Shown: positions 12,020 through 27,658 of the stretch, one piece after another | How positions within the stretch are numbered: position 1 is the first letter of the stretch | Layout: every line of letters begins with the position of its first letter | Assembly: GCA_024230295.1 (NCBI GenBank) | Contig: JAAERN010000039.1 | Coordinates: 1 to 64,000 of the forward strand | Direction: 5' to 3' | DNA: 64,000 nt | DNA from: Planctomycetota bacterium | Lineage (GTDB): Bacteria; Planctomycetota; Phycisphaerae; Phycisphaerales; SM1A02 | Program-made: the position numbers and the translations under genes | Notes under the pieces: model-generated | Databases searched by the model: none | The model's input: the letters and a program-made list of their open reading frames with translations, nothing else | Told to the model about the DNA's origin: nothing

Positions 12020-12050
12020 CTCTATTGCTGCGGGCTGCGCCTGCAGCAAT
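12020..12050 (-). terminator. hairpins just after tRNA-Ala
   Basis: Immediately after the tRNA, an 8-base stem pairs 12043-12050 with 12024-12031 (ATTGCTGC and its complement). A second 8-base stem pairs 12020-12027 with 11989-11996 (CAATAGAG). The two share 12024-12027, so they exclude each other. No T-run follows, so this may be an RNA-processing signal as much as a terminator. Confidence 0.45.
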
Positions 12051-12122
12051 GGAGCAGATGGGACTCGAACCCACAACCTCCTCGATGCGACCGAGGCGCT
12101 CTCCCAATTGAGCTACTGCCCC
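12051..12122 (-). tRNA. tRNA-Ala (anticodon CGC)
   Basis: The reverse strand folds into a full cloverleaf of 72 bases before the discriminator: acceptor GGGGCAG/CTGCTCC, a D-arm with GCTC/GAGC, anticodon stem CCTCG/CGAGG enclosing loop GTCGCAT, and T-arm GTGGG-TTCGAGT-CCCAT. The anticodon CGC reads GCG (Ala). The G3:U70 wobble pair, the main identity element for alanyl-tRNA synthetase, is present. CCA is not encoded. It lies upstream of the ZIP gene and diverges from mutS. Confidence 0.95.
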
Positions 12123-19888: not shown

Positions 19889-21346
19889 ATGGATCTCGGC
19901 TTCGTTTGGATCAAGTCAGCCCCCACGCAACAGGACTCACGCGTGCCATCCCCCACCACAACTGACAACTTGGCAGAACATGTCCAGCACCACATTGGTC
20001 CCACGCCGTACCGCATGTGGTTTGAGCAGGCATCACTGACGATGCGAGAGGGTGTTCTCAGCGTGCAAGTGCCTTCACGCTTTGAAGCCGAGTGGATCGA
20101 ACGGCGGTTCCTCGATCAACTTCGCACTGCTGCCAGAAGTGTTGGCGGAGACGGGGCGGCAGTTTCGTTCTGTGCCGAGTCAATCGATCCCGGCACTCCA
20201 ACGCCAAGCCCAGATCATGACCCATCCGCCGAGCGAACCGGCTCGGATCGCGACGAAGCTTCCCCCCCGCGGGCACGTCGCCAACTGCTCGATCTGAACG
20301 ACTTTGTTGTTGGATCTAGCAATCAGCTTGCATGGACAGCCGCCCGGAATCTGATCGACGATCCCAACGGACACCATTTCTCACCGCTGTTCATACATGG
20401 TGATTGTGGTGTCGGCAAGACGCATTTGCTTCAAGGCCTATGCCACCGATTTCAAGTACAGAATCCAGGTTCGGCCATGCGGTACATGACCGGCGAGGCA
20501 TTCACCAATCAGTTCATTCAAGCTGTTCGACACAATCAGCTCGAGCGGTATCGCCGAACGATGCGGCGGCTCGAACTGCTTGCAATCGACGATGTGCACT
20601 TCATTGCAGGAAAGACCAGAACCCAAGAGGAAGTACTCCACACAATCGACGCCATGGCATTGACGGGTGCCAGAATTGTGCTGGCGTCTGATGCGCACCC
20701 TTCGGTGATCCGCCGATTCAACAGCTCGCTTGCAAGCAGGTGTACATGCGGGCTGCTCGTCCAGGTTGACATGCCAGAACAGGCACTCCGCTTGGCGATG
20801 GTTCAGCGTATTTGCGATGATCGACGCGTCACAATCGAGCCTTCTGCTTCCGAGATGATCGCAATTCAATGCCGATCAGGTGCCCGCGAGATTCAAGGCC
20901 TGCTTGCACGCATTGCCGCTGTTCGCACGGTGCGATCGGCATCGGGTCCAATCACGGGGCTTGATGTGCGCGAGGCGGCTGGGCTTGAGCAACCACGGCA
21001 CCACCGCCCCATCACGCCGCAGACTCTCGTGGAGGCCACGTGCTCGATCATGGGCATTTCTACAGAAGAACTGCGGGGAACCGGGCGCCCCAAGCGGGTG
21101 GTCGCAGCGAGAGGGCTGATCGCGGTATTGGCCCGCGATCTCACGTCCGCAAGTTATCCGGAAATCGCCATCGCAATGGGACGAAAGACACACTCCTCGG
21201 TCCATGCCGGGGCACAACGGATGCGGCAGAACCTGGGTGACGACAAAGAGGTGTCGATTGATGGCTCCATGGTGCCACTCTCCCGCCTCCGTACCCAGAT
21301 CCAAGCTGCCGCCACCTCACACCGACCTTCTACACCCAGTCGGTAG
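19889..21346 (+). CDS. dnaA: chromosomal replication initiator DnaA
   Basis: 485 residues from the ATG; a GTG at 19943 (467 residues, AGGAC just upstream) is equally likely. DnaA opens the origin and loads helicase. Domain I is at PYRMWFEQASL...RFEAEWIERRFL, followed by a polar linker. The AAA+ domain has Walker A GDCGVGKTHLL, Walker B LLAIDDVHF and sensor ASDAHPS. Domain IV has RGLIAVLARDLTSASYPEIA, then MGRKTHSSV where most DnaA proteins have GGRDHTTV, so the residue equivalent to E. coli Asp433, which contacts the box, is Thr here. dnaN is not adjacent. Confidence 0.93.
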   Translation: MDLGFVWIKSAPTQQDSRVPSPTTTDNLAEHVQHHIGPTPYRMWFEQASLTMREGVLSVQVPSRFEAEWIERRFLDQLRTAARSVGGDGAAVSFCAESIDPGTPTPSPDHDPSAERTGSDRDEASPPRARRQLLDLNDFVVGSSNQLAWTAARNLIDDPNGHHFSPLFIHGDCGVGKTHLLQGLCHRFQVQNPGSAMRYMTGEAFTNQFIQAVRHNQLERYRRTMRRLELLAIDDVHFIAGKTRTQEEVLHTIDAMALTGARIVLASDAHPSVIRRFNSSLASRCTCGLLVQVDMPEQALRLAMVQRICDDRRVTIEPSASEMIAIQCRSGAREIQGLLARIAAVRTVRSASGPITGLDVREAAGLEQPRHHRPITPQTLVEATCSIMGISTEELRGTGRPKRVVAARGLIAVLARDLTSASYPEIAIAMGRKTHSSVHAGAQRMRQNLGDDKEVSIDGSMVPLSRLRTQIQAAATSHRPSTPSR

Positions 21347-22929: not shown

Positions 22930-24030
22930 GTGCCCGCTGAAATTCCGCTGTCAAACCCTCTCACTACACCCGACGATCATCGAGTGATCAATGAACTGCT
23001 CCGGTCGCACGGTCTGAGTGGGTCCACGAATCGTAAGGATTTGGAATTGATCCTGACGCAAACAACTTCGCGTCACCACGCAGCAACGTTTGCCTCGTCC
23101 GAACAAGCCTTGTCTGTTCTGCTCGATGCCGTCGGTGTCAATGGGGAGCGTGAAATTGTTGTCCCGGCCCTGGGCGACACGGCCATCCTCAGGGCGATTC
23201 GAAGAGTTGGTGGTATCCCTCAATTCGCTGACTGCGATCCTGGAACACTTGTCCCAACCGCGGACACGGTAGAACGCTGTATCTCACCAAGTACCGCTGC
23301 CGTCACGGCATCACATGGCGATGGCTGGGGGACTGGCCTTCCTGCCATTGTGGCTACCTGCGCCCGTAATGAGGTCCCGTTCCTCGAACTTGTGGGGACC
23401 AGGCTCGGAAGTAGTTGCGGCGCAGCACCAGCCGGATCGCTTGGCCACGCCGCCTTCATCGACCTCTCGCAGCGAGGCATCGTGTCAACAGGCGAGGGGG
23501 CCGCAATCGTGACCGACAATGAACGCCTCGCCAAAGCATGTCGCCCGGACCACTACAATGAGTCCCTCTGCCCGCACCGGCCAGACGAAATGGCCGAACT
23601 CAATGCTGCTGTTGGACTCTCGCAAATTCGCAGACTTGGCGCCACTGTCGAGGCGTGCACTGATGCGGCCGAGACGTACACAATCTTCCTATCCCGGATG
23701 CCCGAGTTGCTCCTGCCCGCAACCACACCGGAGGCCGTGTCATGCTGGTCCCGATACGTCATCAGACTGGATGAAACATTCAGTCTCGAGGATCGCGATG
23801 AGATCATTCGAGGAATGGAGCGGCACGACATCGCGGCAGCACCGGGATTGACACATCTACCAAGCGCGTGGGATCCAGCGTTGGCTACGACATGCCCCGT
23901 CGCAGCCGCAACTGCGCCACGAACTATTGCGCTCCCGATTCATCCAGCGCTGACACGCCGAGACGTTGAACTCATTTGCCAGACGCTCCAACTCATGGTG
24001 CAGCGAGCCACGTTCCGACGATCAGCCTGA
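22930..24030 (+). CDS. DegT/DnrJ/EryC1-family protein lacking the PLP lysine
   Basis: 366 residues, GTG start with GGAG about 9 bases upstream. The fold is that of sugar aminotransferases (type I PLP fold): HHAATFASSEQALSVLLDAV, EIVVPALGDTAILRAIRRVG, and GSLGHAAFIDLSQRGIVSTG followed by EGAAIVTD. In active family members this last segment reads SF.P.K......G(D/E)GG. An ungapped alignment places Arg182 where the Schiff-base lysine should be. The Asp that holds the PLP ring nitrogen (usually E-D-A) is Leu154 in FLELVGT. A conventional aminotransferase is therefore unlikely. It may be a pseudoenzyme or a ligand sensor. Its 3' end lies 6 bases from the NtrC-like gene. Confidence 0.75.
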   Translation: MPAEIPLSNPLTTPDDHRVINELLRSHGLSGSTNRKDLELILTQTTSRHHAATFASSEQALSVLLDAVGVNGEREIVVPALGDTAILRAIRRVGGIPQFADCDPGTLVPTADTVERCISPSTAAVTASHGDGWGTGLPAIVATCARNEVPFLELVGTRLGSSCGAAPAGSLGHAAFIDLSQRGIVSTGEGAAIVTDNERLAKACRPDHYNESLCPHRPDEMAELNAAVGLSQIRRLGATVEACTDAAETYTIFLSRMPELLLPATTPEAVSCWSRYVIRLDETFSLEDRDEIIRGMERHDIAAAPGLTHLPSAWDPALATTCPVAAATAPRTIALPIHPALTRRDVELICQTLQLMVQRATFRRSA

Positions 24031-24036
24031 CGGAAG

Positions 24037-25362
24037 TCAGATCGTCTCTGGCACAATGGCGGCATCCTTCCACCGTCGCAACTTCAGCCCCAGCGTCCTC
24101 ACACCGATCCCAAGCGCTGCGGCGCTTCGACGACGGTGCCCCTTGTGGTGCCGCAACGTCGCGAGAATAGCCGTCCGCTCCAGATCCTCCAGAGTCCGAC
24201 CGCCATCACACACCAGTCCACGACGAGTCTCACCCCCCGAGGATGTCTCGACCCAACCAGCCAGTGTCGACGGATCCAGTGCCCGTGTCGTCGTGTGCAG
24301 CACCAATCGCTCACAAAGAAGTTCGAGCTCCCGATCGTGCCCCGGCCACCGAGCCGACACCAGAATTGCGATTAGATCTCGCCCCAAACTCGGTCGCGGC
24401 CTACCAAGCCTTGCCGCCGATTGAGTGATGTGATGGTGAATCAGATCGGGGAGGTCCTCGAATCTGTCCTGAAGGGAAGGCATTCGCACGATGTGTCCGG
24501 AGACCCGGTCCATCAGCGTCCTTTGAAGCTTGCCCTCTACAAGTGCCTGAAGCGGCGCCTGCCTGAGTGTGAGAACGATCCTGGTGCGTCCAAGGCACGG
24601 CAGGCCGGTTCCAACGGCGGTCCACTGGCCGTCCCGCAAGAGCTCAACGATTCGAAGCTGCACCTGCTCACTGGCGTTGTCGATGCCATCGAGCAGCAGC
24701 GTTCCGCCAGCGGCCAGCCCAATCGCGGATGGCTGCGATTCCGACGCCCCCGGGAATGCCCCTTTGGCATAACCGAAGATCCTGAGCAGCAATTGTGAGG
24801 CAGTGCCCTCGCGGCAGTCGATCGGCACGAATGGCCCCTCGCGGCGAGTGCTTGAATCGTGCAGCCAGCGGGCAGCCGCGTCGAGCGGCGTTCCACAGGG
24901 ACCGTGAATCAGGGTTGGAACATCGTGCTCGGCAACCTGACGAAGTCTGTTGCGAAATCCAGACATGGCCTCGCCGCCGCCAACGAGTTCATCCTGCGAC
25001 CGACATGCAGCGGCTCCGACCGGAGCACCCCCCAACTGCCGGACCTGCGTGTCGATGCAAGCTCGATAACGCTCATGCCCCCATTTGATCAGTTGGTCCA
25101 ACAACTCCCGTCCTGAGTCGGCAAGCCCCATCTCGTCGAGCGAAAGCACGATCGCTGACGGGCACATGTCGTTGACCCGCTGCTTGATCTCCGCTGAGGA
25201 AGCGCCCAGCGTCGATACGAGCAGCACAACCGCGAATTCGCCAGTCGCGAGTGCTTCCAATGCCGCTGGCATTGTCGTTACAACCCTGACACCATCGGGG
25301 CTTACCACCGCAGGCTCACCGATACACAACACGCCCTGCGGCAGGGTCATTCGTTCCGTCAT
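24037..25362 (-). CDS. NtrC-like transcription regulator with a degenerate AAA+ domain
   Basis: 441 residues. A receiver-like N-terminal domain (about 1-110, no clear phospho-Asp), a sigma-54-activator AAA+ domain (about 125-365) and a Fis-type helix-turn-helix (LEDLERTAILATLRHHKGH, then RRRSAAALGIGVRTLGLKL). In the AAA+ domain the order of NtrC motifs is kept but key residues are changed: Walker A reads GPCGTPLDAAA for GESGTGKELVA (no Lys), the sigma-54 loop is GAFPGA for GAFTGA, and Walker B is TLLLDGID for TLFLDEIG. Sensor II WPGNVREL is WPGHDREL. ATP hydrolysis seems impossible, so it probably regulates by DNA binding alone. The ATG at 25362 has GGAG upstream. Confidence 0.8.
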   Translation of the reverse strand: MTERMTLPQGVLCIGEPAVVSPDGVRVVTTMPAALEALATGEFAVVLLVSTLGASSAEIKQRVNDMCPSAIVLSLDEMGLADSGRELLDQLIKWGHERYRACIDTQVRQLGGAPVGAAACRSQDELVGGGEAMSGFRNRLRQVAEHDVPTLIHGPCGTPLDAAARWLHDSSTRREGPFVPIDCREGTASQLLLRIFGYAKGAFPGASESQPSAIGLAAGGTLLLDGIDNASEQVQLRIVELLRDGQWTAVGTGLPCLGRTRIVLTLRQAPLQALVEGKLQRTLMDRVSGHIVRMPSLQDRFEDLPDLIHHHITQSAARLGRPRPSLGRDLIAILVSARWPGHDRELELLCERLVLHTTTRALDPSTLAGWVETSSGGETRRGLVCDGGRTLEDLERTAILATLRHHKGHRRRSAAALGIGVRTLGLKLRRWKDAAIVPETI

Positions 25363-25430
25363 GGATCACTCCACCGCCGGCGAGTCCTTTCACCAACGTC
25401 TCTTTCATATCGGACGTCGGCAACTGAAGA

Positions 25431-26849
25431 TCAGAGTTTTTTGGCCTCTGTCTTGATCCTCACCACCACTGTCCCCGTAGCGACATCTCCAGGCCCCTGC
25501 CCGAGCGGTCCGAGCACCACGATGATGGCGAGCGGTGGCACCAGAATGGTGACTCCCTTGAGCATGTTTCTCAGGACACTTCGCCACCACCCGACCTCCT
25601 CGCCTGAGATCATGGCCACATGGAATCCCATCAACCGCTTCCCTGGCGTTTGGCCCGTAGGTACTTCCCAGACAATCCCCCACACCACCGTCGTTACAGC
25701 TGCGGTTAGCAGGATTGGCACCGTCGCGGGAATTGGTCCTGTGAGGACTGCGGATCCCAGATCGAGGGGCGAGGCCCCGAGGACCAACGGGATAGCCACA
25801 ATCGCCGGAATAAAATCGAGGAGAAAGGCGATTCCCCGAGCTGTAAGCGGGGCTGGCGCGAGCCCCTCTGGAAGTACGCCGACCATGCTGCTCCTGCCAA
25901 ATACAAGCATGAGTACGACGACTAGGGCAATGCTCATTGACACAACAAGCGACCAGATCCGCCCACCCAGATTCGAACGCAATGTCAACGGTGTCCACGG
26001 CGAGGCCGTCCCTGACACCTGATCAATACGCCGCGATGACGGTGACTCATCCTGTATCCGGAATAGGCATAGCGCCGCTTCCGATTCCAGCAATCGGTCG
26101 CCTGCAGAAACGTCTTCAAGAGACGTCCATGGCGCTATGGATCCATCCTGCACGTAGCCGAGCAGACGACGATCGTCGGAGTCTTGAACGCCGAGCAGAA
26201 GCGAACGGCCGCTTCGGGCCAGATCGTGGGCTACCCCCGAATCGATCGACAGTTCGGTCTCAGCCCATACCTGTGTTGACTCAGTCCATCGCCAAAGAAC
26301 TGCTGTTCCAGCTTTGGCCTGGGTCAACAGCGATATATCCGAACCGTCGGCAATTCCTGCGATCATTGAATATTCAGATTCGAACTCAGGCAGCGCCGCC
26401 CACGAGCCTCGTCTCAGCGTATGGATCGAGACTCGTGTGGCATCCGGCTCGCGGCTGACCAGAACAGGCCCCATGGAACCTCCGATGAGGAGTTCCACAG
26501 CCCCGTTGACATCGCACGGCGGAAGGCGATCAAAGCCAGCCGCTGGTGCGGTCCTCCATGACTCCATTTGGGAATCCCAATCGGCTCGAAGTGCCAGAAG
26601 CGAGACTGTCTCTCCGTCTTTCTGCTGGGGCAATACCCAGACTGAAGATGCATGCGCGGCCAGACCCTGTGGCACGCCACTCAGATCTCGAAGCACCACG
26701 TATTCATTGTTCAAGCTGTCCAGGCCCTGCAAACACAGCTTGGTCACTGCGTCATCTTCTGGCGCCTGCCACGCAAACCACAGCCCGTCCCCCTGCGCCG
26801 CCGGCGTCGCGACACCACCAAGAGCCACGAGTACAAGGGTCGTAATCAC
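25431..26849 (-). CDS. RDD-family membrane protein with a large exported domain
   Basis: 472 residues. The GTG at 26849 overlaps the upstream stop as GTGA and begins a signal peptide (ITTLVLVALGGVATPAAQG). About 270 residues of beta-rich extracytoplasmic domain follow (short WxxL-type repeats that could form a propeller). A transmembrane helix comes next (IWSLVVSMSIALVVVLMLVFG), then a C-terminal RDD domain: ARGIAFLLDFI and GQTPGKRLMGFHV are the Arg/Asp motifs that name the family. RDD proteins include Na+/H+ antiporter-like and uncharacterised permeases. It is coupled to the lipoprotein gene upstream. Confidence 0.7.
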   Translation of the reverse strand: MITTLVLVALGGVATPAAQGDGLWFAWQAPEDDAVTKLCLQGLDSLNNEYVVLRDLSGVPQGLAAHASSVWVLPQQKDGETVSLLALRADWDSQMESWRTAPAAGFDRLPPCDVNGAVELLIGGSMGPVLVSREPDATRVSIHTLRRGSWAALPEFESEYSMIAGIADGSDISLLTQAKAGTAVLWRWTESTQVWAETELSIDSGVAHDLARSGRSLLLGVQDSDDRRLLGYVQDGSIAPWTSLEDVSAGDRLLESEAALCLFRIQDESPSSRRIDQVSGTASPWTPLTLRSNLGGRIWSLVVSMSIALVVVLMLVFGRSSMVGVLPEGLAPAPLTARGIAFLLDFIPAIVAIPLVLGASPLDLGSAVLTGPIPATVPILLTAAVTTVVWGIVWEVPTGQTPGKRLMGFHVAMISGEEVGWWRSVLRNMLKGVTILVPPLAIIVVLGPLGQGPGDVATGTVVVRIKTEAKKL

Positions 26850-27658
26850 TCCACAACGTCCGGTCGGAGATGCGTTTGGATGCGATCCAGATCGAACCAA
26901 ACATCCGCAAGTGGCTTGAGAGCCTCCGCCGAAAGCGCGGTGGCGGTGACAACTTGGAGCTTGATCATCGAGTCCGGAACATGAAGATCGATCGTTTTTG
27001 CAAGTTGCCGCGCCGAGGCCGTGTTGTCGATCGTCGTCGCCCCGGTCGTCCAGCGATGCACGCCGATGAATTGCCCCCGATCTCCGAGATCCACTTCAAC
27101 ACGCTCAACACGCAAGTCGGATCGACGAACGGTCGCCTCAAACGTTCCATCAAATGCAGTTCCAGAGATGTGCAGATTCGAGCCCCGCTGTTGGACTTTC
27201 GCACCTTCCGGCCACGGATCCAGCGACAGAAGCATGCGAAGCAGTTCCGGGCTGGTCAAGAGACCACCGTCATTGACTGATGGCTGCCGCACACGAAGCC
27301 TTGTCGGATCCGACATGAGATCAAATTCCCAGTATCGCTTCGGAGTCATTCCCAACCAGTACTTCACGTCGCCGAATTTCGTAATTCGAAGTGAACCCCG
27401 CGATGCACCGTCGAGCAGCAGTTCCATATCCCCCTGCTCTTTGTGGGAAGTTTGTCGACCATCTTGGTCGTCCTCCCACTCCAACTGAATCTGTCCCTTG
27501 AACCGCAACCGATCAAGATCGGAACATCGCTCGCTCCATTGATTCAGAAGGCTCGCGGTCGCGTCGTCGGGGAGTGCCGGCTGGCATGGCGGCGGAGTCA
27601 CCGTCACGCATCCAGCAATCACTCCGCTGGCGAGAAACGCCCAACGGAACCCGATCAC
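26846..27658 (-). CDS. putative lipoprotein
   Basis: 270 residues. The GTG at 27658 lies one base after the stop of the preceding gene, with AAGGGGA upstream. The N-terminus (VIGFRWAFLASGVIAGC) ends in a lipobox VIAGC, so the mature protein should start with acylated Cys. The body alternates strands: RLRFKGQIQLEWEDD, MELLLDGASRGSLRITKFGD, KYWLGMTPKRYWEFDL. This is suggestive of LolA/LolB-type lipoprotein carrier folds, which bind lipid in an open beta-barrel. The resemblance is structural only; I cannot name the family. Confidence 0.6.
   Translation of the reverse strand: MIGFRWAFLASGVIAGCVTVTPPPCQPALPDDATASLLNQWSERCSDLDRLRFKGQIQLEWEDDQDGRQTSHKEQGDMELLLDGASRGSLRITKFGDVKYWLGMTPKRYWEFDLMSDPTRLRVRQPSVNDGGLLTSPELLRMLLSLDPWPEGAKVQQRGSNLHISGTAFDGTFEATVRRSDLRVERVEVDLGDRGQFIGVHRWTTGATTIDNTASARQLAKTIDLHVPDSMIKLQVVTATALSAEALKPLADVWFDLDRIQTHLRPDVVE

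Follow-up and report, generated by a model that had tools for sequence, protein, structure and literature searches.

The sequence studied is a 64,000-nt stretch of DNA, here called the window, in contig JAAERN010000039.1 of a Planctomycetota bacterium (Phycisphaerales; SM1A02). The genome, GCA_024230295.1, is a 2.7-Mb draft assembly of 180 contigs that is 97.6% complete. Between an RDD-domain gene and a convergent gene for a DegT-family aminotransferase lies a gene for a regulator with three domains (Table 1), whose stop codon is 6 nt from the DegT gene throughout the window genus. The nearest named relative in a public collection is a metagenome-assembled genome labeled ‘Phycisphaerales bacterium’ (76% identity). 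Elsewhere in the window are a gene for a DnaA-family protein with N- and C-terminal domains (19889-21346, + strand; Bac_DnaA, 152 bits), whose neighborhood is conserved, and a tRNA gene (12050-12122, - strand; Rfam match, 62 bits).

Table 1. Features of the regulator locus, in window coordinates.
Feature	Position	Strand	Basis
Regulator coding sequence, 441 aa, ATG start: pseudo-receiver, ATPase-dead AAA+ domain, Fis-type HTH	24037..25362	-	
Receiver-like domain, truncated (residues 9-109), without the phospho-Asp and the alpha4-beta5 segment	25036..25338	-	Alignment with intact orthologues; predicted secondary structure
Walker A position, GPCGTPLD, residues 154-161 (GESGTGKE in intact relatives)	24880..24903	-	Alignment
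L1 loop, GAFPGA, residues 201-206 (GAFTGA in intact relatives)	24745..24762	-	Alignment
Walker B position, TLLLDGID, residues 221-228 (TLLLDEIS in intact relatives)	24679..24702	-	Alignment
AAA+ lid, residues 299-371	24250..24468	-	Pfam AAA_lid_14
Fis-type HTH, residues 390-431, most conserved part	24070..24195	-	Pfam HTH_8; mean identity and dN/dS
Promoter-like 10-mer ACGTCCGATA upstream of regulator	25408..25417	-	Conserved in 8/8 genus genomes
Gap upstream of regulator, site of cognate histidine kinase in intact relatives	25363..25430	-	Synteny; Pfam of kinase; kinase search
Gap of 6 nt downstream of regulator, site of palindromes and flagellar genes in intact relatives	24031..24036	.	Synteny; Pfam; palindromes
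RDD-domain flanking gene, syntenic marker	25431..26900	-	Pfam; synteny
DegT-family aminotransferase flanking gene, convergent, syntenic marker	22930..24030	+	Pfam; synteny

An NtrC-class protein with altered ATPase motifs

The regulator matches three Pfam models that follow one another in the canonical order, Sigma54_activat (94 bits), AAA_lid_14 (42 bits) and HTH_8 (39 bits), which identifies it as an NtrC-class protein. A sequence-only reading of the gene had assigned it the whole NtrC architecture. This holds for the order of the AAA+ motifs and for the helix-turn-helix (HTH), but not for the receiver, which is truncated and matched by no Pfam receiver model. Secondary structure prediction gives the N-terminal domain only about four strands, and the deleted alpha4-beta5 segment is the part that bears the conserved Lys of receivers. 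The phosphorylatable Asp and conserved Lys that characterize the receiver of an NtrC-type response regulator are both missing.

The motif sequences given in that reading (GPCGTPLD, LDGID and GAFPGA) were confirmed at the DNA level and correspond to the substitutions K160L (Walker A), E226G (Walker B) and T204P (GAFTGA). Also gone are sensor I, the arginine fingers and the phosphorylation site of the receiver; the sensor II Arg (R344, in the lid) is retained across the aligned genus. Among the components required of a functional sigma-54 activator, the protein has an AAA+ fold and a Fis-type HTH and lacks the Walker A Lys, the Walker B Asp-Glu pair and the GAFTGA Thr. These replacements support the earlier claim that it cannot serve as a normal sigma-54 activator.

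The AAA+ fold itself is predicted to be intact by AlphaFold2 (24-sequence alignment, mean pLDDT 86.7). The best structural matches of the predicted fold include LuxO, FleQ and FlrC (Z ∼25, rmsd ∼2.5), and VpsR is also among the matches (Z 21.4).

Orthologues of the regulator were found in the eight other genomes of the window genus at 54-77% identity. One of these, in G005, lies at the end of a contig and is only a C-terminal fragment, leaving eight full-length members when that of the window is included. All eight carry the losses: the Walker A Lys is replaced by L or V (GTP[LV]), the GAFTGA Thr by P and the Walker B Glu by G or S, while alignment of the genus also shows sensor I lost, variable arginine-finger positions and a receiver region without its Asp and its alpha4-beta5 segment. 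This comparison with close relatives, proposed in the sequence-only reading, indicates that the changes are neither a sequencing error nor peculiar to a single broken copy, since they are common to all full-length members.

The regulator is under purifying selection, which is strongest in the HTH. For the close pair G003/G006 the overall dN/dS is 0.12 and the HTH has no amino-acid changes. The pair G000/G001, with a dS above 1 that makes its figures rough, gives 0.12 overall, 0.06 for the AAA+ core, 0.025 for the HTH and 0.35 for the N-terminal part. Mean HTH identity is 0.88 in the window genus compared with 0.73 among six intact relatives, and the remaining domains are less conserved in the genus than in those six. 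Both informative pairs are therefore far from the value near 1 that had been named as a sign of simple decay, and the earlier suggestion of selection on the DNA-binding part is upheld. The reading frame is open in every genome with a complete locus. A pseudogene interpretation is ruled out by the dN/dS values together with retention of the gene.

Intact orthologues and the loss of the flagellum

A further 13 orthologues, more distant (30-36% identity by BLASTP), are intact response regulators that share with the window protein the recognition helix VRTLGLKL. The gene order at their loci, partly shared with the window, is YbbR, DAC, c9, c1, RDD, histidine kinase, regulator and flagellar genes. 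The last of these encode a basal-body rod protein, fliE, fliF, fliG, fliH and fliI, varying by genome, and in two genomes they are followed by the same DegT, HEAT and DnaA genes that the window has. At 8 of the 13 intact loci (L126, L127, L129 and L133-L137) the 120 nt past the regulator stop codon contain an exact palindrome, GCGCANNNNNTGCGC; the expectation, taken from the remainder of these sequences, is 0.04 loci. These palindromes are probable enhancer sites of the intact flagellar regulator.

Gene order indicates that the window regulator descends from a kinase-controlled, NtrC-type activator of flagellar genes resembling FlbD or FlrC, an origin that the sequence-only reading did not see. 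The gene order accounts for the dead ATPase, in that the regulator originally stood beside a kinase and flagellar genes. That reading had held that intact Walker motifs in relatives sharing the gene order would count against a new role for the protein. Such relatives do occur, outside the lineage, but their kinase and flagellar genes are still present. Because of this they reveal the direction of the change and leave the idea of retooling unrefuted.

In the window genus the partners of the ancestral regulator are missing. FliF is absent from all nine genomes, compared with its presence in 72 of the 101 sampled genomes of the family, and the genus likewise has no match to the models for the flagellar rod and FlhA. 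No orthologue of the kinase was found at the locus or elsewhere, the only kinases detected away from the locus being generic ones of ∼30% identity. The sister genus g53 (three genomes) has the regulator and has no rod, no FlhA and, among those sampled, no FliF. Kinase, flagellar genes and near-gene palindromes are missing from nine genomes of the one genus and three of the other; all are drafts, which makes any single absence weak evidence and a consistent absence over nine and three less so. The regulator itself is kept in 12/12 of these genomes, and its ATPase motifs are lost in 11/11 with the relevant region.

The g53 regulator has GTP[LV] at Walker A, a deletion of the GAFTGA loop and Gln-His in place of the Walker B Asp-Glu, and has lost further parts of the AAA+ domain beyond the L1 loop. 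In trees of the concatenated neighboring genes and of the regulator alike, g53 is the sister group of the window genus (100% support). Given this placement, inactivation and retention are most simply dated to the common ancestor of the two genera. A search of 131 family genomes with the HTH did not recover the regulator from the sampled genomes of the flagellum-less genera g2, g6, g18, g28, g29, g59 and g60, whose sole matches were no better than those expected of ordinary NtrC proteins.

The window genome also carries rpoN and one canonical bEBP (C1:49208), so sigma-54 regulation persists in the cell. Loss of rpoN was rejected as a cause, since the gene is present in the window genome and in six of the eight other genus members (it was not found in G005 and G006).

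A different outcome is seen in genus g26, where the orthologous locus of six genomes (L187-L192) encodes a frame of 131-206 aa that comprises the HTH only, with no receiver or AAA+ domain. An RDD gene lies upstream, and fliE follows the HTH-only gene in five of the six, wherever the contig allows. One or two copies of a core palindrome, GCARNNNYTGC, occur after the stop codon in all six, and the kinase orthologue is missing from each of three genomes tested. Here HTH and ATPase were uncoupled a second time, independently of the first. Like the window protein, its orthologue has no working ATPase and has a near-identical HTH core at the orthologous locus. Unlike the window protein, which retains a pseudo-AAA+ domain predicted to fold, it has lost receiver and AAA+ domain outright and keeps fliE and the palindromes.

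Several flagellar loci of the family are reduced. In g26 the rod model is unmatched in two genomes tested and FlhA is present in three. In G012, FliF is fused to the C-terminal domain of FliG (644 aa; L127:11152-13083); the rod model PF00460 is absent and FlhA and an intact kinase-regulator pair are present, making this a reduced, rod-less flagellar locus. In G011 the cluster at this locus is down to fliF and fliG, with a shortened FliG (287 aa; L138:10857-11717) directly followed by a DegT gene and with FlhA elsewhere in the genome.

Candidate sites and targets

The conservation and position of the upstream 10-mer ACGTCCGATA suggest that it is a promoter-like element of the regulator gene itself. 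It also occurs at orthologous places near two other genus genes (G000:C141:14327 and G000:C55:17654); at G000:C141 the conserved match lies close to the start of a gene of ∼430 aa that has orthologues in G003, G006 and G007. As a regulon motif it was rejected, with genome-wide counts similar to those of a reversed-pattern control and no enrichment; one conserved set of similar matches falls in tmRNA and is probably a coincidence. No exact copy of the ancestral palindrome GCGCARNNNYTGCGC occurs in the window genome. Other genomes of the genus do have exact matches, but these point to no consistent target from which to derive a regulon: the shared ones fall within coding sequence that is itself conserved (G002/G004) or come from G003 and G006, which are a near-identical pair.

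Possible function and evolutionary context

Bacterial enhancer-binding protein homologues that act independently of sigma-54 form a known class of NtrC homologues without GAFTGA. The window regulator shares that loss and would be a variant of the class derived from a flagellar locus. VpsR, TyrR, DhaR, HupR and the NtrC proteins of Rhodobacter capsulatus and Caulobacter all function without a normal GAFTGA, and regulation of sigma-70 promoters has been reported (PMC10274813, PMC3162934). The window protein differs from this family in having lost Walker A and Walker B as well, and in being the remnant of a flagellar locus that has been lost; Caulobacter NtrC requires both Walker motifs, and R. 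capsulatus NtrC requires ATP binding. Compared with FlbD of Caulobacter and with FlrC and FleQ, it shares the NtrC architecture, an ancestor beside flagellar genes and an AAA+ fold matching those of FleQ and FlrC, but it lacks Walker A, Walker B, sensor I and GAFTGA, and has no flagellum left to regulate. The NCBIfam model for FlbD (NF050807) aligns over residues 28-436 at 136 bits, far below the 750 bits set as its equivalog cut-off. DNA binding through an HTH_8-type domain is also seen in Fis-type nucleoid and regulator proteins, although the window protein carries two domains more and is of NtrC-family ancestry.

We consider it probable that the protein is a DNA-binding regulator with a dead ATPase that acts independently of sigma-54, most likely as a repressor, and that it arose from an FlbD-like flagellar activator. 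The starting point would be a kinase-controlled NtrC-type activator of flagellar genes. Gene absences on the tree show that the flagellum and the cognate kinase had gone by the common ancestor of the window genus and g53, and by the same stage, as the sequences show, the motifs for ATP binding, ATP hydrolysis and sigma-54 contact, along with the receiver phosphorylation site, had disappeared, in whatever order. The protein was retained under strong constraint, above all on the HTH. Its DNA binding may need neither phosphorylation nor ATP hydrolysis, the pseudo-AAA+ domain may act as an oligomerization scaffold, and action would be at promoters without sigma-54, most likely by occlusion. Such a role most likely has its source in a second activity of the ancestor, one independent of ATP, like those known from FlbD and FleQ. 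FlbD is a repressor of class II flagellar genes and an activator of class III genes (PMC3096577), and FleQ both represses and activates sigma-70 biofilm promoters without a need for ATP hydrolysis (PMC10723142). If the ancestor was similarly dual, its sigma-54 arm would have become useless once the flagellum was gone, with the other arm still selected. We infer, as had been proposed from the sequence, a repressor or a sigma-54-independent regulator. The conserved AAA+ core could point to a ligand-driven or activating role in place of plain repression, and the failed target search with the ancestral palindrome also counts against the preferred explanation.

The strong constraint on that core is in keeping with a VpsR-like activator of sigma-70-type promoters, whose pseudo-AAA+ domain would recruit RNA polymerase on binding a ligand, for example c-di-GMP, with no repression involved. 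VpsR, reported to act at sigma-70 promoters without ATP (PMC10274813), is among the structural matches along with FleQ. We nonetheless regard this reading as rather unlikely, because g53 has dispensed with the L1 loop and further AAA+ parts and g26 manages without the entire domain. The predicted fold, together with the persistence of rpoN and an intact bEBP (G000:C1:49208), would also allow the protein to enter mixed rings with the latter as a dominant-negative partner, damping sigma-54 transcription. This is highly improbable: the two proteins are only ∼30% identical, arginine-finger positions vary in the genus, and the HTH as the most conserved part would be left unexplained. Least credible, to the point of near dismissal, is a functionless relic decaying after loss of the flagellar system. 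The disappearance of kinase and flagellar genes, the diverging receiver region (N-terminal omega of G000/G001, above) and the greater AAA+ losses of g53 are in keeping with decay, but the open frames, the low overall dN/dS, an HTH omega of 0.02-0.05 and a 10-mer conserved in every genus genome compared are not, and the gene is kept in all 12 genomes of two genera while absent from the sampled genomes of seven other flagellum-less ones.

Returning to an ATP-independent DNA-binding regulator as the favored outcome, we lean, with somewhat less assurance, toward the view that a flagellar NtrC regulator was stripped of its ATPase to this end at least twice. In the window genus and g53 this would have involved inactivation of motifs, later partial deletion and complete loss of the flagellum, and independently in g26 removal of the receiver and AAA+ domains at a reduced flagellar locus, so that only the HTH was left.

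A limited literature search found no published precedent for a flagellar bEBP that outlived its flagellum, although one may exist. bEBP homologues without a working GAFTGA were already known, each treated in the cited literature as an isolated case. In the present lineage the steps can be followed through gene order, trees and related genera, from an intact kinase, regulator and flagellum through reduced loci to a pseudo-ATPase without flagella. Annotation of the window protein as a sigma-54 activator, as its Pfam match invites, would mislead on function. The locus offers an example, open to testing, of a master regulator outliving the machine that it controlled. If the ATPase was indeed stripped twice, these genera would form a natural series in which enhancer binding and the sigma-54 motor prove separable in evolution.
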